Source of the DNA: Polaribacter sp. IC066
GTDB lineage: Bacteria; Bacteroidota; Bacteroidia; Flavobacteriales; Flavobacteriaceae
Reading direction: 5' to 3'
NCBI RefSeq assembly: GCF_007997085.1
Contig: NZ_VORR01000004.1
Coordinates: 1-64,000 of the forward strand
DNA: 64,000 nucleotides
The position numbers and the translations under genes are program-made. Of the stretch, positions 42,098 through 55,578 are shown in pieces. Numbering within the stretch: the first letter of the stretch is position 1; every line of letters starts with the position of its first letter. Below the pieces are notes generated by a model. That model made no database searches. It saw nothing but the letters and a program-made list of their open reading frames with translations, and was not told the origin of the DNA.

Positions 42098-42116
42098 ACT
42101 CGTCTTGTTGTTTTCG

Positions 42117-42201
42117 CAGAGAGGAAGGGATTCGAACCCTCGATACGTTGCCGTATACACACTTTCCAGGCGTGCGCCTTCGACCACTCGGCCACCTCTC
42201 T
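42117..42201 (-). tRNA. tRNA-Ser (anticodon GGA)
   Basis: On the minus strand an 85-base cloverleaf folds with acceptor stem AGAGAGG/CCTCTCT, discriminator G, D arm GCCGAGTGGTCGAAGGC, anticodon loop CTGGAAA (anticodon GGA, reading UCC and UCU), a long variable arm and T-loop TTCGAAT. The long variable arm and discriminator G are serine identity marks. CCA is not encoded. It is downstream of rimM in the same direction. Confidence 0.95.
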
Positions 42202-42294
42202 AATTTTTGAAGAACTCTCTTCAGTATTTCTGAAATGATTTCAACACTTTACTATTTAAACTCAAAATAATGAAACTAAAATCCTGAACTAAAT

Positions 42295-42822
42295 TTAGGA
42301 TAAATACAATTCAATTAACCCGGCAGGCGTTTCTACTTGTATTGTTTTATTTGCTCTATCTACTTTTTTGATAAAATCATCAACCATAGGAATAAAAATC
42401 TCTGTACCTTCTCTATCAATCTCAAAAAGTGGCTGCGCAGCTTTATCGTTGATATGAACAATTTGCCCTACTTCACCAAAATTCACATCAACAACCGTAA
42501 AACCAAGAACCTCATGATAATAAAATTTATCACCAGATAATTTAGGCAACATGGTTGATGGTAAATAGATTCCGCATTTTAAAATAGCATCTGCTTCTTC
42601 ATCAGAATATACATCTTCAAACTGAACACGCAATTGATTCCCTTTGTGAAGTGAACTTTTTTCAATAAAAAATGGAACCAGATTACTGCCAAATTCGACG
42701 TAAACTGATTCCATTTCTGTGTACAACTCGGGCTCGTCGGTATCTAATTTGATCACAACTTCGCCCTTAAAACTATATTTTGTAACGATTTTGCCCAAAT
42801 AAAAACAATCTTCTTTACGCAT
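42295..42822 (-). CDS. rimM: 16S rRNA processing/ribosome maturation factor RimM
   Basis: The 175-aa protein helps the 30S head mature and binds S19. The N-terminal RimM barrel (about 5-90; FYLGKIVTKYSFKGEVVIKLDTDEP) and C-terminal PRC-barrel (about 95-175; YYHEVLGFTVVD and FEIDREGTEIFIPMVDDFI) are both complete. It starts 19 bp after rpsP, the usual pairing. trmD and rplS, which follow in Proteobacteria, are absent here. Confidence 0.93.
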   Translation of the reverse strand: MRKEDCFYLGKIVTKYSFKGEVVIKLDTDEPELYTEMESVYVEFGSNLVPFFIEKSSLHKGNQLRVQFEDVYSDEEADAILKCGIYLPSTMLPKLSGDKFYYHEVLGFTVVDVNFGEVGQIVHINDKAAQPLFEIDREGTEIFIPMVDDFIKKVDRANKTIQVETPAGLIELYLS

Positions 42823-42841
42823 CTTCGTATAAATTTATAAT

Positions 42842-43384
42842 TTATTCTGCTGCTTTTGCTGCTGCTTCATCAATTGTTTCAGGAGCTGCTTCTGCCGCTT
42901 CTTCAACTGTAACTTCAGCAACAACCTCTTCAACAACTGGTTTAGCTGCTTCAATTCTTGCTTCGTTTACTGCTTTTTCTGCTGCAAATGCTTTCGCTTT
43001 TGCTTCAGATTCAGCTTTAGATAAGCCTGCTTCTTTATCAGCAACTTTAGTAGCTTTTACTTCTAACCAAGCTGCAAATTTAACATCTGCTTGCTCTTGT
43101 GTTAAAGCACCTTTTCTAATACCACCAACTAGATGATTTTTTAACATTGCACCTTTATAAGATAAAATGTTTTTAGCGGTATCTGTTGGTTGTGCACCAT
43201 TTTGTAACCATTCTACAGCTTTATCGATATCTAAATCGATAATTGCAGGGTTCAAATTAGGATTGTAAGTACCTATTTTCTCTAAGTATTTACCATCTCT
43301 TTTTGCACGGGCATCAGCGGCAACGATCCAATAGAATGGTTTCCCTTTTTTACCGTGTCTTTGTAATCTAATTTTTACAGACAT
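42842..43384 (-). CDS. rpsP: 30S ribosomal protein S16 with long acidic tail
   Basis: The first 80 residues are canonical S16 (VKIRLQRHGKKGKPFYWIVAADARAKRDG and LSYKGAMLKNHL). The 100-residue extension, rich in Ala, Glu, Lys and Val, is typical of Flavobacteriia, where S16 is about 150-190 aa instead of 80-90. Its role in the ribosome is unknown to me. The gene heads the rpsP-rimM pair and has a structured leader upstream. Confidence 0.95.
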   Translation of the reverse strand: MSVKIRLQRHGKKGKPFYWIVAADARAKRDGKYLEKIGTYNPNLNPAIIDLDIDKAVEWLQNGAQPTDTAKNILSYKGAMLKNHLVGGIRKGALTQEQADVKFAAWLEVKATKVADKEAGLSKAESEAKAKAFAAEKAVNEARIEAAKPVVEEVVAEVTVEEAAEAAPETIDEAAAKAAE

Positions 43385-43400
43385 AATTTGTTAATTTTTT

Positions 43401-43461
43401 AAGGTTCTCGACCTTGATTATTAAAAATCCTACCATCGCGTGGTAAGTGGGCGCAAAAATA
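43401..43461 (-). promoter_or_regulatory. rpsP promoter and hairpin leader
   Basis: On the minus strand TATTTTTG (43454-43461) matches the -7 consensus. The leader then contains two hairpins: TACCA-CGCGA-TGGTA (43431-43445) and AAGGT-CGAGA-ACCTT (43401-43415), the latter 16 bases before the start codon. This is a candidate S16 autoregulatory leader. Confidence 0.5.
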
Positions 43462-43747
43462 CAAAACCTTTTGAACATAAAACTAGATTTATTAATAATT
43501 TTTAGGTCTTTTGAGCGGGCTTTCATTCCTCGCTTCTCGCAAAAAACACCAGAACTAAAACAAAATACTGTCTTCAGCAGATTCGAAAGATTCAGCCCCT
43601 AAAGCATTTCACTCAAAAGCTAGTAAACTTTCAATAAAAAAAATTAACAACATACAATAAGATCTCTCTTATGACTCAGACCCAAAGTACCAGCAAAAAT
43701 TAATATTAAAATTGGCAATCAACAATTTAAACACTTATACTCAAATT
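43462..43747. other. Intergenic DNA, nothing recognised
   Basis: Spacer upstream of rpsP leading into the M2 element. No reading frame or structure that I can support. Confidence 0.35.
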
Positions 43748-43922
43748 CATTAGTGTCCGATTAAAAATAGTATTCGTTAATAAAGTACTTTAAAATAAAA
43801 AGATTGCACTTGCTTTTTACAATTACACCTTGTTTTTAGAATTAATTCTGAAATTAAAAATGTATCCTTTTTTTTTATCAAATTTTAAGTTAGTTATAAT
43901 CTAATCTTGTTTCCCTACCGGA

Positions 43923-44856
43923 AGCTACAGTGTACCCTCATCTTTTACAAGTTTAGCTCCTTCTATTATGTATGACAACCTGTCCAATCCTTTTTTTAGT
44001 ATGATTACTCCAGGTGGTCCTTGAGAATCATAGCCTTTCCAACCTCCAATTCGTCCTATAATCCAAGCAGCCCATTTTGTTGTTTTAGGATTGTTATGGT
44101 TTTGAAGTTTGATGGTTTTTCCTTGTAATTTTTTGTTCATAAGCTCAAGGATTTCTATTTGATCAGCGTTAAAAACCTCTATTATTGGCCGACCTCCTTC
44201 TGGATCTGCATAGGCAATGTTTATTTGTAATATTTTAAAAGAGCTGTCATTTGAAGTGCTACTAACTTTCTAATAGCCCATCCATTTTCTAATTCTGTCT
44301 CTTCAACCTGCCTGCCTTTAGATTTGTAAAGTTACTTTTAAGAAAATAATAGAAGAGATGATTATGATGATGAGATTTCTTTTTGTGCTACTTTTTTTCT
44401 TTGTTGATAAGTGTAACTTTGTTAATAACTTAAAAAAGAATGGGGTGAAGTTTAAAACAGTGAGCTGTGTCGGATTTATCTGAACGTCCCAAACCACTAT
44501 CAGTATTGAACCGTCCTTTATGTTTTGATAAATTTACTTCGCAGGTATCTTGTATGCATAATAAATTCCTTCCTTTAGCAAGGCTACTCATTCGATTGAA
44601 AGACTCTTTAATCAGTATTTCTTCTTTTACCTTATCATTATTTAATAAACGATAATAACTTTTTTGTTCTGCTTTTGTTGTAGCAAGCTGTCGAATAGTA
44701 GAACTTGGATGAAAAGAAAGTTTACTCTATAGTTCTTTTGCTCTTCTTTCAAGTCGTACATCCCCAATCAATCCAATATAATCAGGAAAAAAGAAGGAAG
44801 GGTTAATGTCTGTTATCATAATGTAAAGTTAGTATATTTGTGGGTACACTTTAGCT
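43923..44856 (-). mobile_element. Degenerate IS4-family insertion sequence with TIRs and target duplication
   Basis: The ends AGCTACAGTGTACCCTCA (43923-43940) and, on the other strand, AGCTAAAGTGTACCCACA (44839-44856) match in 16 of 18 positions. ACCGGA flanks both sides (43917-43922 and 44857-44862), a 6-bp target duplication. The 934-bp length is well short of an intact IS4 element (about 1.4-1.6 kb), owing to internal deletion of the transposase gene. Confidence 0.75.
43925..44819 (-). pseudogene. IS4-family (Tn5-dimerisation type) transposase remnant
   Basis: The N-terminal part starts at 44819 (MITDINPSFF, then GDVRLERRAKEL), hits an in-frame TAG after about 31 codons, and continues with AEQKSYYRLLNNDKV, LLCIQDTCEVNLSKHKGR and GLGRSDKSD, typical of the catalytic N-half. 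The central catalytic region is deleted. The C-terminal part (frameshifted near 44236) reads GWAIRKLVALQMTALLK and then PEGGRPIIEVF, NHNNPKTTKWAAWIIGRIGGWKG and SQGPPGVIILKKGLDRL to the stop at 43925. The product cannot be active. It lies inside the MITE-like element M2. Confidence 0.85.
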
Positions 44857-44917
44857 ACCGGACAGGCAGGTTGGCTCTAAAAGCAAAGCGATCTTGTTTC
44901 TTTTATCCGACAACAAT

Positions 44918-45027
44918 GTTATGTTATTAAAAGTGAACAGCAAGTGTGCCATCTCCTCCTAAAATTACTTACGTTTAAATTAAGAACAAAACTGTCTAAC
45001 TTTTTTCAGGATTATTTTTTACTAAAA
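44918..45027. other. Short spacer between M2 and the response regulator gene
   Basis: No gene or hairpin recognised. It contains an AAAACTGTCTA stretch also found in the M3 and M4 elements. Confidence 0.3.
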
Positions 45028-45660
45028 TCAAATCTCATTATTATAAGACTTTTTGATAAGTTCTGCTTTACTATTAATTTCTAAAACTTTATAAATATTT
45101 TTTATATGACTACGAACAGTATCTAGAGATATAAACAAATTGTCAGCAATCATTTTGTAGCTTTTCCCGTCAACTATTTCCGTTACAATTTCTTTTTGCC
45201 TTGTAGTAAGCAATCCTTTTTTTGAGGCATTTGGTGCAAAATGATTTGCAATTTTTCTAGCTATTGAAGGTGACATATAAGAACCACCTTTATAAACAAC
45301 CTCTACCGCTTCAAGTATTTTTTTTAAAGGTGTTCTTTTAGATAAATAAGAACAAGCTCCTGCACATAATGCCTTAAAAATGCTATCACTGTCTTCAAAA
45401 GTTGTGAGCATTATAATATCAATATCTGGTAACTTTTTTGTGATTAAAGGAATTCCTTTAATCCCAGACATTCCTAATAAATTAATGTCTAACAGCAAAA
45501 TAGCTGGCTGTAGTATTTGTAAATCTACATTTTTAAGAAAATCTTCTACACAAGAAGTAATTAGCACACAATCTATATGCGGCTGTGTATTAAAAAATGC
45601 CTGTAAGCTTTCTTGCACTAAAATATCATCTTCTATAATTGCAAGTCTTAAATCATTCAT
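45028..45660 (-). CDS. LuxR/NarL-type response regulator
   Basis: The 210-aa protein has a receiver domain (about 5-125) with acidic residues near the N-terminus (GluAspAsp), the phosphoacceptor Asp in LLLDINLLGMSG, and the conserved Thr and Lys positions (MLTTFED, LSKRTPLK). A LuxR helix-turn-helix follows (about 148-205; LTTRQKEIVTEIVDGKSYKMIADNLFISLDTVRSHIKNIY). It lies 84 bp downstream of the cognate-looking propeller kinase. An ATCACAT-N4-ATGTGGT site precedes it at 45725-45742, so it may regulate its own synthesis. Confidence 0.9.
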   Translation of the reverse strand: MNDLRLAIIEDDILVQESLQAFFNTQPHIDCVLITSCVEDFLKNVDLQILQPAILLLDINLLGMSGIKGIPLITKKLPDIDIIMLTTFEDSDSIFKALCAGACSYLSKRTPLKKILEAVEVVYKGGSYMSPSIARKIANHFAPNASKKGLLTTRQKEIVTEIVDGKSYKMIADNLFISLDTVRSHIKNIYKVLEINSKAELIKKSYNNEI

Positions 45661-45724
45661 TTTTTAATAATTTGTAGCACAAATACTTATTAAGTAAAGT
45701 TATAAAAATAACTATGTAAAAAAA

Positions 45725-45742
45725 ATCACATATTCATGTGGT
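45725..45742 (-). promoter_or_regulatory. Candidate response-regulator site 2 (ATCACAT-ATTC-ATGTGGT)
   Basis: An inverted repeat CACAT-N4-ATGTG with shared flanks (A/T outer bases), 65-82 bp upstream of the response regulator start. The same 18-bp pattern occurs at 48843 and, reversed, at 51289. Confidence 0.55.
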
Positions 45743-45743
45743 A

Positions 45744-48700
45744 TTATAAATTAAATGGTAGGTATACTTGAATACAAAAACCAGCATCTTTTGTAATTTT
45801 AAGTTTGCCTTTTATCTGCTTCGCCCGCATTTCCATATTTAATAACCCTAATCCTGTAGAAGTACAATTTCCGATATTCTTTCCATTATCTTTTATTGTA
45901 AAGTGACTTCCTTTTTTTTGATTCACAATACTAATCGTTACTTGATTTGCATCTGAATGACGAATTATATTGGTAATAGCCTCTTTACATATTAAAAATA
46001 AATTTTGTTTTATCTGTGGAGATAATTTTCGATTTGGATGTTTTATGGAGCTTGTTTCCAGTTGAAATGTAATATCTAAAGGTAATAAAGTATCTTCTGC
46101 AAGTTCTTGCATTCGCTCTACTAAATCATTTGTAGTCTGTCTTCTGCTATCAATACTCCAAACTAAATCTCGCATTTGAGAAATAGCATTTCTACTAATT
46201 ACTGCAATTTTTTGTAATTTCCATTTATCTGCATCATTTGCATTCGTTTCTAAAAGTTCGGTTTGCATCGCCAAACCAGATAACATAGAACCTACATCAT
46301 CATGTAAATCGCTTGCAATTTTGGTTCGCAACCTTTCCATTGCTAAAATCTGATGCAATCTATATTTAAAAATAGCATAGAGCACCAAGAATACAGCCAA
46401 AATTATCAAGCTAATAAACCCCCATTTTTTATAAAATACTTGCTGTACAATAATAGGAATTGATAATGAAATAACACTTGCGTTTCCGCTAGAATCTGTA
46501 CCTTTTACCTTTAACGTATAGTGGCCAGCTGGCAATTGGTTGTAACGAATGGATGCCTTATTACCTTGATTGAACCAACGATCTTCAAAGCCTTCTAATT
46601 TTGTGCTATAGGTATTTTTTGTATTCTGAAAATAGCTTGTCATCATCCAGCTAACTTCAAAATATTGATCATAAGGTGAAATTTTTAAAGTTATAGGTTT
46701 AGTTTGACTATAATCTGTATTAAAATTCTTTTTCTCCTTGCTATTATAACCAGAAACGGCTAAAAAACGTAGTTTTGGGGAATTAGATTTTTTTAAGATT
46801 TCACTAGGTTTAAAAACGGTTAAACCGTTCATACCACCGAAATAAAAATCACCAGCAATAGATTTATAAAATGATGAGTAGTTGAATTCGTTATTTGACA
46901 AACCATCTTCATCATAAAAATTTTGAAAAATTTCAGTATTTTTATTGAATTTAGAAATTCCATTATAGGTACTAATCCAAAGATTTTGTTCTTCGTCTGT
47001 TAAGATTCCTACAATGGTGTCATCAGGCAAACCTTGATTTTTGGTATAGTTTGTTACGGTATTTCCATCTGCAGAAATATGGTTAAGTCCACCAGCATAA
47101 GTGCCCACCCAGAGACCCCCATCTGCATCTTCTTCCATAACAAGAATAAAATTTCTTGAGATACTTGGTTTAGAATCTGTTTTATATTGTTTTTCTAAAC
47201 GTCCGTTAAGATGTATTTTTAATACACCATCGTTTTGCGTTCCTATCCATACAATACTATCTGTTTTGCTTTCTTTAAAATATCTAAAATCAGCAATATC
47301 GGTTTCAGTTTTTGGATTTTTAAAAATAAATTCACTAGTTTCTGTTTCAGGATCAAAAAGTAGTAACCTGTTTAAACTTTGTCCTAAAAGTATTTTACCA
47401 CTCTTAAGTTTAATCAATGTATTTTCTCCTTTAAGTGAAATATTATAATTAAATTGAGGGTAACTTTTAGTAGTTCCGTCCTTCAAATTTATTTTCAGTA
47501 AATTATCTCCTATTGTAAATACGTGCTGCTTTTTGTCATCTAAAACATAAAAATTGCTTCTGTATTTTGATGCATCTTTTGATACACTATCTAATTTAAT
47601 TTGTAAAGTAGCAATAGTGCCATTTTTTGTTTTGTAGAGAAGTTTGTTTTCACTCTCACATTTTGCAAAAACAGTTCCATTTTCATCTTCAAAAAGACCA
47701 CGCATTGTGTTAGCCCAACCTTTATTTTTAGATGTAAAAAGAGTTTTAAAAAGCTCTTCAATTATTTGAATTTTAAACAAACCGTTGTCGGTTGCGACCC
47801 AAAGTAATTTATTTGCATCTATAAAAAGATAATTAATTTTAGAGTATTCAAATCGCGCTATTAATTGCGCTGTATAATCAACAAATTCTCCTTTAAGATT
47901 CATGCGATATAACTTTTTACTACTCGCAAACCATAGTTGTTTTTGATGATCTTCTATCGCATAGTAAAATTGGTTTTTATCATTAAATACGTGTTTTTTT
48001 ATTATTTTTTTTTCATCAAAAGTAAAAATACCAAGTTCTTTTCTTGGAAAAAAATAGTGGATATTATCACTATTATAAAAAGACACCGTAAAATTTAAAT
48101 CGGCAGAATGCCACGTATAATTGGATAACTGAAACGTGTTTAATAAATTTCCTTCAGAATCAAATTTTAAATTTCCATGAGATGCACTCCACAAAATATT
48201 ACCATGTGTATCATTAATTAATCTACTATAAGCATATTTAGGTCTTTTTATAAAAGCTCTAACTTCAAATTTTTCATTTGTTAGTTTTTGCAGGTACTGT
48301 TTTGCTTTTCCGTTTTCTACTGATAAAAAATCGTCAGACATAATCCAAATGCTGCCATCTATAGCTTTCAATATTCGTAAAACGTTGCCTTTAATATTGT
48401 GTGTATGATTGTAAGCAATTACTTTATCTGTAGATAATTGTAGTTTAAAGAGCTTTTCATTTGCTAAATACCAAAGTTCGTTGGTCTTATTATCAAAGAC
48501 CAACTCTCCTGTAATTAATTCCTCTTCAATATAATAAGGATTACTTTGATCAGAATTATAAACCTTAAAATTGTAACCATTGTAACGTATCAAACCAATA
48601 TCTGTACCAAACCACATCGCACCTGTAGCATCTTGTGTTATCGATGTAATATCTCTAAAGGGTAGACCTTGTTCTGTAGTAAGCACATCTATTTGAGATG

Positions 48701-48782
48701 GATTTTGTGCATTCACAAAACTGCAAACAAGTGCCAATATAAAACACGTAATTATTCGAGCAATTTTTTTAATGATTTTCAA
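45744..48782 (-). CDS. Two-component propeller sensor histidine kinase (non-hybrid)
   Basis: The 1012-aa protein has a signal peptide (CSFVNAQNPSQ), a periplasmic beta-propeller with Reg_prop repeats (about 30-640; TSITQDATGAMWFGTDIGLIRY is the first), a Y_Y_Y domain (about 680-745), one membrane helix (about 765-790), a HisKA_3 dimerisation domain with the phosphoacceptor His in SDLHDDVGSMLSGLA (about 824) and a HATPase_c domain ending in GlyLeuLeuAsnMetGluMetArgAla. It is not fused to a regulator; the LuxR-type gene downstream is the obvious partner. Propeller kinases of this group often sense carbohydrate or peptide breakdown products. Its promoter holds an inverted repeat at the activator position. 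Confidence 0.9.
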   Translation of the reverse strand: MKIIKKIARIITCFILALVCSFVNAQNPSQIDVLTTEQGLPFRDITSITQDATGAMWFGTDIGLIRYNGYNFKVYNSDQSNPYYIEEELITGELVFDNKTNELWYLANEKLFKLQLSTDKVIAYNHTHNIKGNVLRILKAIDGSIWIMSDDFLSVENGKAKQYLQKLTNEKFEVRAFIKRPKYAYSRLINDTHGNILWSASHGNLKFDSEGNLLNTFQLSNYTWHSADLNFTVSFYNSDNIHYFFPRKELGIFTFDEKKIIKKHVFNDKNQFYYAIEDHQKQLWFASSKKLYRMNLKGEFVDYTAQLIARFEYSKINYLFIDANKLLWVATDNGLFKIQIIEELFKTLFTSKNKGWANTMRGLFEDENGTVFAKCESENKLLYKTKNGTIATLQIKLDSVSKDASKYRSNFYVLDDKKQHVFTIGDNLLKINLKDGTTKSYPQFNYNISLKGENTLIKLKSGKILLGQSLNRLLLFDPETETSEFIFKNPKTETDIADFRYFKESKTDSIVWIGTQNDGVLKIHLNGRLEKQYKTDSKPSISRNFILVMEEDADGGLWVGTYAGGLNHISADGNTVTNYTKNQGLPDDTIVGILTDEEQNLWISTYNGISKFNKNTEIFQNFYDEDGLSNNEFNYSSFYKSIAGDFYFGGMNGLTVFKPSEILKKSNSPKLRFLAVSGYNSKEKKNFNTDYSQTKPITLKISPYDQYFEVSWMMTSYFQNTKNTYSTKLEGFEDRWFNQGNKASIRYNQLPAGHYTLKVKGTDSSGNASVISLSIPIIVQQVFYKKWGFISLIILAVFLVLYAIFKYRLHQILAMERLRTKIASDLHDDVGSMLSGLAMQTELLETNANDADKWKLQKIAVISRNAISQMRDLVWSIDSRRQTTNDLVERMQELAEDTLLPLDITFQLETSSIKHPNRKLSPQIKQNLFLICKEAITNIIRHSDANQVTISIVNQKKGSHFTIKDNGKNIGNCTSTGLGLLNMEMRAKQIKGKLKITKDAGFCIQVYLPFNL

Positions 48783-48815
48783 AAGTAATAATTAAATAAG
48801 TAATTAGCTGATTTT

Positions 48816-48823
48816 CAAATATA
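48816..48823 (-). promoter_or_regulatory. -7 promoter element of the kinase gene (TATATTTG)
   Basis: An exact TAnnTTTG match on the minus strand, 34 bp before the kinase start. The inverted repeat at 48843-48860 is centred about 42 bp upstream of the predicted transcript start, replacing the -33 element. Confidence 0.5.
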
Positions 48824-48842
48824 CGAAATAAAGAAGCTAAAT

Positions 48843-48860
48843 ATCACATTAAGATGTGGT
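48843..48860. promoter_or_regulatory. Candidate response-regulator site 1 (ATCACAT-TAAG-ATGTGGT)
   Basis: The inverted repeat lies between the kinase gene (61 bp upstream of its start) and the divergent NTF2-like pseudogene (78 bp upstream of its ATG), so it could have controlled both. Same pattern as sites at 45725 and 51289. Confidence 0.55.
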
Positions 48861-48937
48861 TGACAAGATCCTAAACATCCTTTAATTTAGTTTTTGTTAA
48901 CAACGAACCTTAAAACTATTTATTTAAAACCAAATTT

Positions 48938-49449
48938 ATGAAAACATAAAAACAAGTGCAATTGTATTATTTCTACTTATTGGGCAAATCAGTTTTGCGC
49001 AAAACAAAAGTTATAAAGAAACAGTCACAGAAAATCATACTGCAGAAGAAGATTTAAAAGTAGTTGCAGACTATTTTGATGCACTTTTAAATAATAAAAT
49101 GGATAAAGCTGCTAGCTTACTCGCTGAAAACCTTGTACACAATGGGCCAAACTTCGGTAAAACAGAAACAAAAGTTGAGTTCATTGCCAATTAGAAAGAA
49201 TCGCATAAAGTACGTACAGAACAAAAAAACAACTTTGTTAGTCAGACATTTAGAGTTATTGATGGCGACTTAATAGGTGATTGGGTTGCTGTTTGGGGAA
49301 ACTACATTTTTACACAAGATGGTATTGAAGTGAATATGCCTTACCAATCAACGGCAATGGTAACAGACGGTAAAATTGCTAGCCTTACCACCTATTATGA
49401 CGTGTTAGCTATTTCTCTAGCTATGGGTTATGCGCTAACAAAGAATTAG
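48938..49449 (+). pseudogene. Secreted NTF2/SnoaL-like protein, broken by a frameshift and a stop
   Basis: Starting at the ATG at 48938, the frame meets TAA at 48947. A coherent secreted protein continues in another frame from about 48952 (signal LFLLIGQISFAQ, then AEEDLKVVADYFDALLNNKMDKAASLLA, VTDGKIASLTTYYDV near the end), and is interrupted again by a TAG at 49192-49194, a Trp codon in the likely original (AlaAsn-stop-LysGluSerHis). It ends at TAG 49447. Two independent lesions make this a clear pseudogene. The intact protein (about 165 aa) would have been a small NTF2-fold protein. Confidence 0.8.
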
Positions 49450-49551
49450 AGAAAGAAGAATTAGAAGTAATAGTCAAAAACCTGAAAGGCATCGCTAAAA
49501 AATTGCTAAAGATTCTTAATGGTGTCTATTAAGTGTAACTTCATGAAATAA

Positions 49552-49767
49552 CATTATTGTATCATAAAAGACTCAAGATTGCTTGGCTTTTAGAACCAAG
49601 ACTTGATTCTAGCTATCTGACAAACCGATATAACTTAAAATAAAATTGTCTACTTTATATTGATAAAACCATTTTTAATAAAGCAAGGTGCATTTAAAAA
49701 ATTCGTTGAACCCTATATTTTAAATGGGTTTATGAAACTAAATAATACGTTTAATAGGGAACTAGTG
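49552..49767. mobile_element. MITE-like element M4 (degenerate, inverted orientation)
   Basis: Relative to M3 (60099-60325) this 216-bp stretch aligns in reverse: CATTATTGTATCATAAAAG at its left corresponds to the M3 right end, the CAAGATTGCTT, CTTTTAGAA and AATTGTCTACTTTAT blocks follow in order, and the right end approximates the complement of the M3 left TIR. Decay is advanced, so the boundaries are approximate. Confidence 0.55.
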
Positions 49768-49805
49768 ATAAAATAAATATATTAATAACTAAAAATCAAT
49801 TAATT

Positions 49806-50744
49806 ATGAAAACAGTAGGTATTATTGGAGGTTCTGGCTTTATAGGAAGTTATGTTACCAAAAACTTTTTAGAGCAAGGCTTTAAAGTTAAAGTTTCTTC
49901 GACAGACATTACAAAAAGTGAAAAATATGCGCATTTAAAAGAATTAGGCAATGCTAAAAATTTAAGTATTGTTCCGCTAAATGTAGAAAATAAAGAACAA
50001 TTAGAAAATTTTGTATCGGACTGTGATATTGTAGTGCATGGAGGTACACCTTTTCAGTTAGATTTTAAAGATGCAAAAACCGAATTATTTGATCCAACCT
50101 TAAAAGGCACAGAAAATTTTTTAGCGGCAATTAACAACGCAGCTAAAGTAAAAAAGGCGGTTTTAATTGCTTCGGTTGCTGCTTATAACACGAACTTCCC
50201 ATTGCCTGCTGGCAATAAATCATCAAATGATACATTTAGCGAAAAAGATACGCCTTTTATGAGCGAAGAAAGTCATCCGTATGCACAAGCAAAATTTATT
50301 GCCAATACAACCGTGAATGACTTTATAAAAAAACATCCTACTTTAGATGTAGAAATAACCACTGTATCACCCGTTGGTGTTTTTGGAAAATCGATGTCGC
50401 AAAGACAAGACTCTACCTCTACTGGTTTACAATATTTAATACAAAATAATATTGCGCCTAATCCATTTGTACAAATGTTGTTTGATACGGATGCAGAAAT
50501 GGCAATGGTAAATGTAAAGGATGTTGCAAAAGGTATTTACAATGCTGCAACAAAAAAAGGGTTACATGGTAAAAACTATTTATTGACTAGTGAGTCATAT
50601 CCAATATCAGATATTTCTTTGATGCTGAATAAAAAAGAACCAAAACATGCCGCTAAAGTAATTTATCAAAATGGTTTAGCAGAAAAAGAATTAGATTTAC
50701 CGTTCGTTTCTGCACAACAAACGTTAAATGAGTATGCTAGTTAA
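49806..50744 (+). CDS. NAD(P)-dependent epimerase/reductase of the extended SDR family
   Basis: The 312-aa protein opens with the Rossmann motif VGIIGGSGFIGSYV (GxxGxxG), has a NADP-compatible region (SSTDITKSEK), the catalytic-type Ser and the Tyr-x-x-x-Lys pair (TyrAlaGlnAlaLys, about 163-167), and ends with a variable substrate domain. It resembles dihydroflavonol-reductase-like and NmrA-like proteins. The substrate is unknown. It is preceded by the decayed element M4 and followed by a strong terminator, so it forms its own unit. Confidence 0.82.
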   Translation: MKTVGIIGGSGFIGSYVTKNFLEQGFKVKVSSTDITKSEKYAHLKELGNAKNLSIVPLNVENKEQLENFVSDCDIVVHGGTPFQLDFKDAKTELFDPTLKGTENFLAAINNAAKVKKAVLIASVAAYNTNFPLPAGNKSSNDTFSEKDTPFMSEESHPYAQAKFIANTTVNDFIKKHPTLDVEITTVSPVGVFGKSMSQRQDSTSTGLQYLIQNNIAPNPFVQMLFDTDAEMAMVNVKDVAKGIYNAATKKGLHGKNYLLTSESYPISDISLMLNKKEPKHAAKVIYQNGLAEKELDLPFVSAQQTLNEYAS

Positions 50745-50782
50745 TATTTTTTTAAAATAGTACTTATCAATTTTAGCTTATC

Positions 50783-50812
50783 AAAATCCCGAAGTAAAAC
50801 TTCGGGATTTTT
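50783..50812 (+). terminator. Terminator of the SDR gene
   Basis: A 13-bp perfect stem (50783-50795 with 50799-50811) with a 3-base loop ends in T residues, 40 bp past the stop codon. Confidence 0.9.
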
Positions 50813-51130
50813 ATTGAAATTAACATTTCTCAAAAAGTAAGAATCTATATCATAAATGAGTATAAAATAAGAATTACGAAAAAAAAATATTAAAATTAAG
50901 ATTCGTATTGTGCACGCTAACTTCATTTATTTTATGCAATAACGAGTAGACAAAAGAGGATTCGGAAGCTGCAATTATTAAAAAATAAAATCAATGACTA
51001 TTTCCAAGAAACTTTTGATCAGAATATTCCTAATTCTCCAGAGTTTCAAACAAGGATCGCAATAAAAAAAGACTGCGAAAAGCTGATGATAATTCACCTA
51101 CTATCGAAAAAAAATCTGTAAAAATTTAAC
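50813..51130 (+). other. Decayed coding remnant, family not recognised
   Basis: A 58-codon stretch without a start (about 50948-51121) reads ArgGlnLysArgIleArgLysLeuGlnLeu and then LysIleAsnAspTyrPheGlnGluThrPheAsp to a TAA. Its composition looks coding (helical, Lys/Gln-rich) but it lacks an initiation codon, and I cannot name a family. It is immediately followed by the hairpin at 51131. Confidence 0.35.
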
Positions 51131-51162
51131 AAAGAAGATCTGGCTAGGTTCAGATCTTCTTT
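51131..51162 (+). terminator. Orphan terminator hairpin
   Basis: A 12-bp perfect stem (51131-51142 with 51151-51162) with an 8-base loop. It follows the decayed remnant at 50948-51121 and presumably ended its transcript before the gene decayed. Confidence 0.75.
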
Positions 51163-51185
51163 AATCGTATTTACGCTTTCAAAAG

Positions 51186-51305
51186 ACGAATTTAGGAGAA
51201 GAATATAATATTCGAGAATTTCACGAAGTAGTTATTTCTCACGCTACAATCCCATTAAATATTTTAGAAGATTTTTTGCAACAACAAAACCACATCAATA
51301 TGTGA
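51186..51305 (+). pseudogene. C-terminal remnant of a DUF885 family protein
   Basis: The 39 codons read AsnLeuGlyGluGluTyrAsnIleArgGluPheHisGluValValIle followed by AlaThrIleProLeuAsnIleLeuGlu and end at TGA 51303. This matches the conserved C-terminus of DUF885 lipoproteins (GlyxxPheAspIleArgxPheHis ... ValProLeuSerIleLeu). No upstream part of the gene survives. The last bases overlap the inverted repeat at 51289-51306. Confidence 0.6.
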
Positions 51306-51306
51306 T
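51289..51306 (+). promoter_or_regulatory. Candidate response-regulator site 3 (ACCACAT-CAAT-ATGTGAT)
   Basis: The exact reverse orientation of the 18-bp pattern at 45725 and 48843, placed 75-92 bp upstream of the secreted-protein gene at 51381. A TACTTTG element, one base short of TAnnTTTG, follows 22 bp later (51329-51335). Confidence 0.55.
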
Positions 51307-51380
51307 TGATTGTTAAAGAAATCTTAAATACTTTGCAAGTGTAAAAATAACAAACACATTATTAATTTAAAAACACACGT

Positions 51381-52106
51381 ATGAAAAAAGTATTTATTAT
51401 TTTATTGATGTTCCCGCTCTTGACAATGGCACAAATGACCGAGGGACTTCTTACCTTATCAGAAATTACAGTAAAGCAAGGACATAATGCTCAATTTATG
51501 GAAGGTGTTAAAAAATGGAAAGAATGTTATAATAAGGAAGAAGGCACAAATTCTTGGGCTTTTTGGTCAAGGCTTCAGGGTGAAGGAAACGTATATGTCA
51601 TTTCTGGTAATATGCCAAATTGGGCTGAAATGGACAAAGAAGATATGGCTAGTAAGTCATGTAGCATCATCGCAATGAATTTTATTACGCCACATGTTGA
51701 AAAAATTAATTATAATATTACCAAAACGCTGCCAGAATGGAGTAAAAAGAGCGAAAATACCGATACAAAGCTCGCTTGGGTTACTTCTTTTAGAGTTAAA
51801 AATAATGTTTTATTTGCTGAAATTATTAAAGAAATAACGGAAGCTATTATTTCTGAAGAAGGTGAACCAAGAGGGAATTGGTATCGTTTTATGGGTGGCA
51901 GTGAAGATGCCCCTGATTATATGGTATCTGATTTCTTTAAAAGTTATGCAGGCATAGATGAAGATGAGAAAAGAAATGGCCCATTTGAAATTTATAAAAA
52001 AGTGAATGGCGACAAAAAAGCGAATCAGATGATGGATCGATGGATGAGCGCTGTTGATGGTTCTTGGTCTTATCTCTATGAGCTTAATGCAGCGTTATCT
52101 AACTAA
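51381..52106 (+). CDS. Secreted protein of unknown function (possibly two alpha/beta-barrel halves)
   Basis: The 241-aa protein has a Sec signal peptide (FPLLTMAQMTEG, cleavage after about 18). Two parts of similar style follow. The first (about 22-110) has LeuSerGluIleThrValLysGlnGlyHis and Trp-rich helices; the second (about 125-235) has TrpValThrSerPheArgValLys and ends MetAspArgTrpMetSerAlaValAspGlySer. The arrangement recalls dimeric alpha/beta-barrel (ABM-like) proteins but I assign no family. It is preceded by inverted repeat site 3, suggesting control by the nearby two-component system. Confidence 0.7.
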   Translation: MKKVFIILLMFPLLTMAQMTEGLLTLSEITVKQGHNAQFMEGVKKWKECYNKEEGTNSWAFWSRLQGEGNVYVISGNMPNWAEMDKEDMASKSCSIIAMNFITPHVEKINYNITKTLPEWSKKSENTDTKLAWVTSFRVKNNVLFAEIIKEITEAIISEEGEPRGNWYRFMGGSEDAPDYMVSDFFKSYAGIDEDEKRNGPFEIYKKVNGDKKANQMMDRWMSAVDGSWSYLYELNAALSN

Positions 52107-55221: not shown

Positions 55222-55578
55222 TTTATAGGCCAATTATAAATGTATCATTTAAAAAATAAATATATGGTTATGAAAAAATGCATAGGTTTATTTAATAAGG
55301 CAATCTTACTCGTATTCTTCTCAAGATTAATTTTTAGAATTTGCTGGTTATAGAACATAAATTTATAAAAAACAATTCCCAACAGTCTCTTGTCTTAAAG
55401 TTAAAGAATTAGCCTTAACAGAATTTTGACTAGATATTAAATTAGAAGCCCATACAACTCAATAAAACTAAAGTGTATAATTTTTTGTGATACGTTTGGG
55501 TTCAAGTTTTTTTAATTTCTAAATCACATTAAAATTTAGTTAGTATCAATTTTAATCATTAACCCAACCAACAAAAAA
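55222..55578. other. Intergenic DNA with a weak inverted-repeat match
   Basis: No gene recognised. At 55523-55540 ATCACAT-TAAA-ATTTAGT matches the response-regulator site in 12 of the 14 non-spacer bases, but only the left arm is intact; it lies 38 bp from the DUF418 start. Confidence 0.35.

Follow-up and report, generated by a model that had tools for sequence, protein, structure and literature searches.

Heptamers recognized by NarL are separated by a spacing of 2 bp. In Bacteroides, sensors of the Reg_prop/Y_Y_Y type belong to the hybrid two-component systems (HTCS), whose DNA-binding domain is of the AraC type. Class-II activation, in which the activator sits beside region 4 of the sigma factor, is known for lambda cI at the PRM promoter. 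HTCS combine kinase and regulator in one protein (PMC11253607). In the passages on flavobacterial promoters, the promoter box of Flavobacterium johnsoniae has its T at −12 (PMC6847099), and TAnnTTGY represents the SM5 class of F. psychrophilum, located at −12 to −5 (PMC9723704); these passages name no operator of a LuxR-type regulator.

Here, we describe a locus of Polaribacter sp. IC066 in which a propeller sensor kinase and a LuxR-type response regulator are accompanied by three copies of one palindrome, ATCACAT-N4-ATGTGGT. The locus lies in a stretch of 64,000 nt (contig NZ_VORR01000004.1, positions 1 to 64,000, forward strand), hereafter the window, whose numbering is used throughout. The comparisons presented below indicate that the palindrome is probably the operator of the adjacent regulator and that its role is probably activating.

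Palindrome copies and the kinase–regulator pair

The three exact copies of the 18-bp pattern were recovered precisely where the initial annotation had placed them, on the plus strand at 45725–45742 and 48843–48860 and on the minus strand at 51289–51306, all within 5.6 kb. The first copy (operator 1, annotated on the minus strand) is located between the stop codon of the kinase gene and the regulator gene, and the second (operator 2, plus strand) in the divergent intergenic region of the kinase and a SnoaL-like gene. The third (operator 3, annotated on the plus strand) lies upstream of a secreted 241-aa protein and has the extended form ATGTGATTGA, with TANNTT 22 nt further on. The distances from palindrome to start codon were 64 nt for the response regulator, 60 nt for the kinase, which has a TTG start, and 74 nt for the gene at 51381; the initial annotation had given 60–95 bp.

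These are the only exact copies in the whole assembly (4,276,588 bases, 169 contigs), and two further places carry one mismatch. A genome scan with up to two mismatches, as proposed in the initial annotation, gave 22 forward and 16 reverse matches versus 8 and 8 for the reversed-pattern control. With the base composition taken from the window, 0.055 exact copies are expected in the assembly under independent bases and 0.027 under a first-order Markov model; the probability of three or more exact copies is 2.6e-5 and 3.2e-6, respectively.

The response regulator (45028–45660, minus strand, 210 aa) consists of a receiver and a LuxR/GerE helix-turn-helix domain. The Pfam scores of both domains (Response_reg 1.4e-15, GerE 1.9e-14) exceed the curated cut-offs, giving the LuxR-type architecture of the NarL/FixJ family, and the nearest solved chains are VraR, followed by DesR and NarL. 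Thirteen of the 14 orthologues described below were aligned (G395 was left out, as its mechanically derived open reading frame (ORF) is short); they are 59–94% identical to the regulator of the window, and the recognition helix reads DTVR[ST]HIKN in 13/13. Residues E10, D11, D12 and D58 are invariant in this alignment; by their position, we take them to have the conserved roles, including that of the phosphoacceptor aspartate. The sensor kinase (45744–48782, minus strand, 1012 aa) contains a Reg_prop propeller, Y_Y_Y, HisKA_3 and HATPase domains. The pair had been regarded as an orphan one, a description that does not hold, as kinase and regulator are neighbours on one strand, encoded by separate genes. 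Two other open frames of the genome with Reg_prop domains comprise 1365 and 1384 residues.

The TTG start of the kinase is located at 48782, and by eye a TTG is found near the same place in several orthologues; it may keep kinase levels low. The pair is also situated close to rpsP-rimM, both in the window (42116–45028) and in genome G195 (L141, 6145–9518), and in the window a tRNA-Ser adjoins rimM (42116–42201). This neighbourhood is possibly an insertion hot spot.

Conservation of the putative operator at related loci

Close relatives of the kinase (E ≤ 1e-100) were detected in 13 of 397 Flavobacteriaceae genomes, including that of the window. A scan of the collection added the kinase of P. 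glomeratus (85% identical), bringing the total to 14 loci. In 97 genomes sampled from the genus, the kinase was confined to that of the window, and in a sample of 295 genomes of the class, matches outside the family reached at most 34% identity; thus, the module has a patchy distribution.

Comparison of the orthologous upstream regions, which the initial annotation had suggested, revealed the palindrome at both places in every locus: upstream of the kinase in 14/14 and between kinase and regulator in 14/14, with one core mismatch allowed. The core CACAT-N4-ATGTG is exact at all 14 kinase-upstream sites and at 12/14 of the intergenic ones, those of G088 and G063 having one mismatch. The intergenic site lies 1 to 37 nt past the kinase stop codon. 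The longer form AYCACAT-N4-ATGTGRT is present at the kinase locus in 11/13 kinase genomes, and the variants of G284 and G350 differ at one outer base. No families other than kinase and regulator are shared by all 14 loci; a DUF6090-like family comes next, in 8 of the 17 stretches fetched (six genomes). The sites, their rarity, their conservation and their spacing are seen directly in the DNA, and the palindrome is a real, conserved and very probably regulatory site. The comparison supports the earlier proposal of a shared operator and a local regulon, and it points to the LuxR-type regulator, likewise proposed, as the most likely binder.

Alternatively, an unlinked transcription factor, for example of the CRP type, might bind the palindrome and control the pair, since the letters of the palindrome recall a CRP site. 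However, the CRP consensus is TGTGA-N6-TCACA, and the arms found here, CACAT-N4-ATGTG, stand in the reverse order and do not match a CRP-type operator. Furthermore, a global regulator should have other sites, yet no other exact site exists in the assembly, and the site's only constant neighbours are the kinase and regulator families. We consider control by an unlinked factor very unlikely.

The palindrome could also be read as an RNA hairpin or a small repeat element, given that it is an imperfect inverted repeat with a 4-nt loop and that operator 1 follows directly on the kinase stop codon. This is highly improbable: positions 2 and 17 show no covariation (by eye, six Watson–Crick pairs, five T-G and three C-A among the 14 kinase-upstream sites), operator 2, on its divergent side, and operator 3 lie upstream of the inferred start sites, and a repeat element is at odds with only three exact copies in the assembly.

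Chance, or leftover common ancestry of the intergenic sequence, is the least credible explanation, with a probability close to nil. A reader might have chosen one window with three copies from many, and across the family the bare palindrome is not more frequent than its control. Nevertheless, three copies in this genome have a probability of about 1e-5. In addition, loci whose kinases are 40–85% identical retain the palindrome and the 22-nt spacing described in the next section, while the letters between them vary.

Promoter geometry and proposed mechanism

In the divergent promoters, TANNTT starts exactly 22 nt from the palindrome in 14/14 loci, and no other offset between 11 and 26 is used. 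The same offset was observed in 6/6 other promoters, namely that of the 51381 gene of the window, three in G069, one in G284 and one in G195. In the regulator promoters, TANNTT is located at offset 22 in 10/14 and at 21 in 3/14. On the kinase side, the box is 15–21 nt away in 13/14 loci (19 in six of them), and none was found in G063. A TTGA sharing the last base of the palindrome abuts it in all 14 divergent promoters, for which the consensus is CACATnAAnATGTGrTTGAca-N17-TAnnTT. Full TAnnTTGY boxes are present in 6/14 divergent and 3/6 other target promoters.

In the window, the putative −7 box of the regulator promoter, TAACTTTA (45695–45702, minus strand), lies 22 nt from operator 1. Operator 2 is flanked by the putative kinase −7 box TATATTTG (48816–48823, minus strand) at 19 nt and, on the other side, by the putative −7 box TAATTTAG of the divergent promoter (48883–48890, plus strand) at exactly 22 nt; a −33-like TTGACA (48860–48865, plus strand) shares the last base of this operator. 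The putative box TACTTTGC (51329–51336, plus strand), of the TAnnTTGY type, is 22 nt from operator 3. The initial annotation had noted a missing −33 element; this applies to the kinase, where no −33/−35 element is evident, but not to the divergent side with its TTGACA.

With the T of the box placed at −12, as in the F. johnsoniae promoters treated in PMC6847099, the centre of the palindrome, counted from the inferred start sites, would fall near −43.5 for the targets and near −40 for the kinase of the window. The invariant operator-to-box spacing at the targets argues for a contact with RNA polymerase, i.e., for activation. Such a class-II position, previously suggested for the kinase gene, is best supported at the divergent, 51381 and regulator genes (22 nt) and least at the kinase itself (15–21 nt); because the kinase-side spacing is loose, the targets make the stronger case for class II.

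From these data we infer the identity of the binder, its phosphorylation, the activation, the start sites and the existence of a signal. The propeller kinase would sense a signal outside the cytoplasm and phosphorylate the regulator, whose operator would be [A/T]YCACAT-N4-ATGTGR[A/T]. A dimer of the regulator would then bind the palindrome near −43 at the divergent, 241-aa and regulator genes, beside the −33 region, where it may contact RNA polymerase and activate transcription. At the regulator's own promoter, this activation would result in positive feedback on the regulator. The kinase promoter, whose −7 boxes are the best and whose spacing is loose, probably works for the most part at a basal level or is under different control.

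The regulator might instead bind the palindrome and repress, blocking RNA polymerase at −33 and autorepressing the kinase, its own gene and the targets. The palindrome does overlap or abut −33, the divergent promoter has a TTGACA, the best −7 boxes are in the kinase promoter, and the loose spacing on that side would suit repression there. Repression requires no fixed spacing, yet the offset is 22 in all of the divergent and the six other promoters; we therefore regard general repression as unlikely. A mixed model, with activation at the targets and the regulator and repression or neutrality at the kinase, is conceivable.

A composite pattern (core, TTG, 20 nt, TANNTT) yielded four exact matches in three of the 295 class genomes and no control match. 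Two of the matches belong to this genome, one to the orthologous locus of G174, and one, in G638, is chance-like. The two exact places in this genome are those of the divergent gene and of the 51381 gene; the pattern deviates by one mismatch at the regulator site and by two on the opposite side of operator 3. The putative strong-site regulon of this genome is confined to this locus.

Occurrence outside the kinase loci and the recognition helix

In the 14 kinase genomes, sites with up to one mismatch occur at 59 places versus 30 for the control (hand sum). Away from the loci, 18 of 21 further such sites in 20 stretches are inside ORFs; places G296:C66, G395:C6, G069:C1, G284:C14 and G491:C2 are outside that count. 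Outside the two standard places, five exact sites (51289 in the window, three in G069 and one in G284) lie between genes and keep the 22-nt spacing. Operators 8209 and 9199 of G069 (L082) have about 45 nearly identical nucleotides in common on one side, which suggests a duplicated regulated promoter.

Among genomes lacking the kinase, exact sites were inspected in 20 of 25 (G031, G133, G198, G307 and G392 are not in the count); 12 sites are inside ORFs and eight intergenic. Three of the intergenic ones, in G195, G212 and G129, were selected for having a −7-like box, and all three lie beside more distant pairs of propeller kinase and LuxR-type regulator. G212 and G129 carry sites with up to one mismatch in three places: ahead of the kinase, in the kinase–regulator interval and ahead of the following gene. 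A single site is present in G195, before a 1616-aa protein that precedes kinase and regulator.

A distant set of 20 kinase loci in the class was also compared, 18 of which were used (L179 and L187, where no regulator adjoins the kinase on the same strand, were excluded). Near the genes, ACAT-N4-ATGT was present in 6/7 loci with a DTVRxHIK helix versus 0/11 others, and TACAT was combined with x = F or K, CACAT with x = S or H. With the inclusion of L142 and L143, which had been identified by way of the site, nine palindromes were counted in 20 loci versus 0.43 in shuffles. The apparent code has several weaknesses: L185 and L186 are from one genus; L191, the seventh locus, has one-mismatch forms only, and its regulator and kinase are 1.7 kb apart; and in L189 the palindrome forms the central part of a longer inverted repeat that resembles a terminator. 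A second set comprised 57 regulator loci of 59 matches (the window's own and G501, already used, were left out), among which L303 is the regulator of L190 and hence not independent. It contained seven palindromes versus 1.2 expected in shuffles, most of them adjoining regulators with helices of other types; in L292, contrary to the code, H is combined with TACAT.

Several observations weigh against the assignment of the palindrome as an activating operator or against its extension to other loci. AYCACAT-N4-ATGTGRT matches occur in 37 of 397 family genomes versus 39 (hand count) for the reversed control; the bare palindrome is without family-wide enrichment, and what sets it apart is solely its position at the kinase loci. 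The five remaining intergenic exact sites in genomes without the kinase (G078, G019, G003, G142 and G222) were viewed within 3 kb only, and no site was found in the kinase–regulator interval of G195. In the more distant pairs of G212, G129, G709, G675 and G599, TANNTT is at 22 in only 5/14 promoters. The spacing on the kinase side varies by 6 nt, which is unusual for a class-II activator, and the spacing sets were compiled after the first alignments had been viewed. Finally, the link between helix and operator was not reproduced in the second set (1/3 versus 4/54, P = 0.24).

The helix/operator code is a lead only. It is conceivable, albeit doubtful, that a broad Bacteroidota clade of propeller kinase/LuxR-regulator pairs has a common ACAT-N4-ATGT scaffold, with the outer base (CACAT or TACAT) set by the recognition helix (DTVRxHIK and close variants) and with cargo that varies from species to species, forming an exchangeable sensor-driven cassette. 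If the helix/operator link holds, operators could be assigned from sequence for other such regulators.

Putative target genes

The secreted 241-aa protein (51381–52106, plus strand), which has a signal-peptide-like start and no fold assignment, is a likely target of the regulon, as initially proposed, because its relatives in three other kinase genomes have the site and none of those elsewhere does. The 397 genomes gave 30 family matches, spread over 28 genomes; five copies fall in four of the kinase genomes, and the other nine kinase genomes have no match. The palindrome is located 74–92 nt before the start codon of the family gene in the window, G174 and G042; in G069 it is 489 nt away from the copy, and one paralogue of G042 has none. 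For the 25 copies in genomes without the kinase, a site with up to one mismatch was present in 0/25 loci (L115 is cut by a contig end). The protein had no Pfam or NCBIfam match, and the family profile had no match in the PDB. An ABM match in one of 15 family members (E 0.06) was not counted as evidence. Single-sequence structure prediction gave a mean pLDDT of 36 and no usable model. The region before operator 3 (50745–51380) has no ORF of at least 100 aa and looks, by eye, like decayed coding sequence.

The first divergent gene (48938–49449, plus strand) encodes a SnoaL/NTF2-like protein with a signal-peptide-like start. It is indeed a pseudogene, as the initial annotation held, with an in-frame stop and a reading-frame lesion after the third codon. 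Its translation is 83% identical over 167 residues to a P. glomeratus protein, which is intact (170 aa) and matches SnoaL_2. It is followed by a gene for an NAD-dependent epimerase of the short-chain dehydrogenase/reductase (SDR) type (49806–50744, plus strand; Pfam Epimerase 5.5e-20), possibly part of the divergent transcript; in P. glomeratus, G395 and G244, relatives of this SDR follow the same operator in the same orientation.

The first divergent gene varies across species: it is SnoaL-like, one of two SDR kinds, RidA-like, an esterase, a member of a Pfam-less family, a 2224-aa HYR protein or a member of the 241-aa family, some of these assignments being based on clustering alone. The data suggest a single module of sensor and operator whose cargo can be exchanged; its predicted targets differ between species. 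Very large, apparently secreted proteins adjoin the operator in three genomes: one of 2224 aa with HYR domains (L079, 909–7583), one of at least 3072 aa that reaches the edge of the stretch (L075, 1–9217), and the one of 1616 aa (L141, 9605–14455).

Tandem arrays of related proteins of 240–280 aa, assigned to the DUF6090 type from one scanned member, are situated near the kinase/regulator pair in L077 (13378–19572), L082 (13760–19839) and L074 (15507–18607), with 31 copies in eight of the fetched stretches, from six genomes. In L077, eight consecutive copies follow the operator and a RidA-like gene. A literature search by the name DUF6090 found no paper on this family.

A fourth, degraded site had been proposed at 55523, before the DUF418 gene. 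It has two mismatches, both in the right arm, and lacks a TANNTT box at 22 nt. When up to three mismatches are allowed, the window contains 12 matches versus 6.35 in shuffles; the site is thus indistinguishable from chance, and the proposal was not supported. In three other genomes (G088, G069 and G042), DUF418 relatives are found in the vicinity of the pair, and no operator directly before them was seen in the locus maps.

Comparison with known systems

A literature search found no paper on an operator for the LuxR-type partner of a propeller kinase in this group, which is weak evidence of absence, as most subscription journals lie outside its coverage. The kind of system is known; no account of this operator, of its geometry or of the differing targets among species was found. 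With a precise operator and a promoter geometry defined to the base pair, target genes become predictable, and a short, testable reporter construct can be made.

Like the NarL/FixJ regulators VraR, DesR and NarL, the regulator described here has a receiver and a GerE helix-turn-helix domain and a putative palindromic operator near −40; the system differs from them in the operator sequence, with arms 4 bp apart, and in the propeller-sensor kinase. It resembles the HTCS of Bacteroides in the Reg_prop/Y_Y_Y sensor, but the kinase and the LuxR-type regulator are separate genes. With regard to flavobacterial promoters, the kinase boxes match the sigma-A form TAnnTTTG and the target boxes partly match the SM5 type of F. 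psychrophilum. Finally, with the palindrome centred at about −43.5 at the targets and adjoining the −33 element, the putative activator would be placed much as lambda cI is at PRM.

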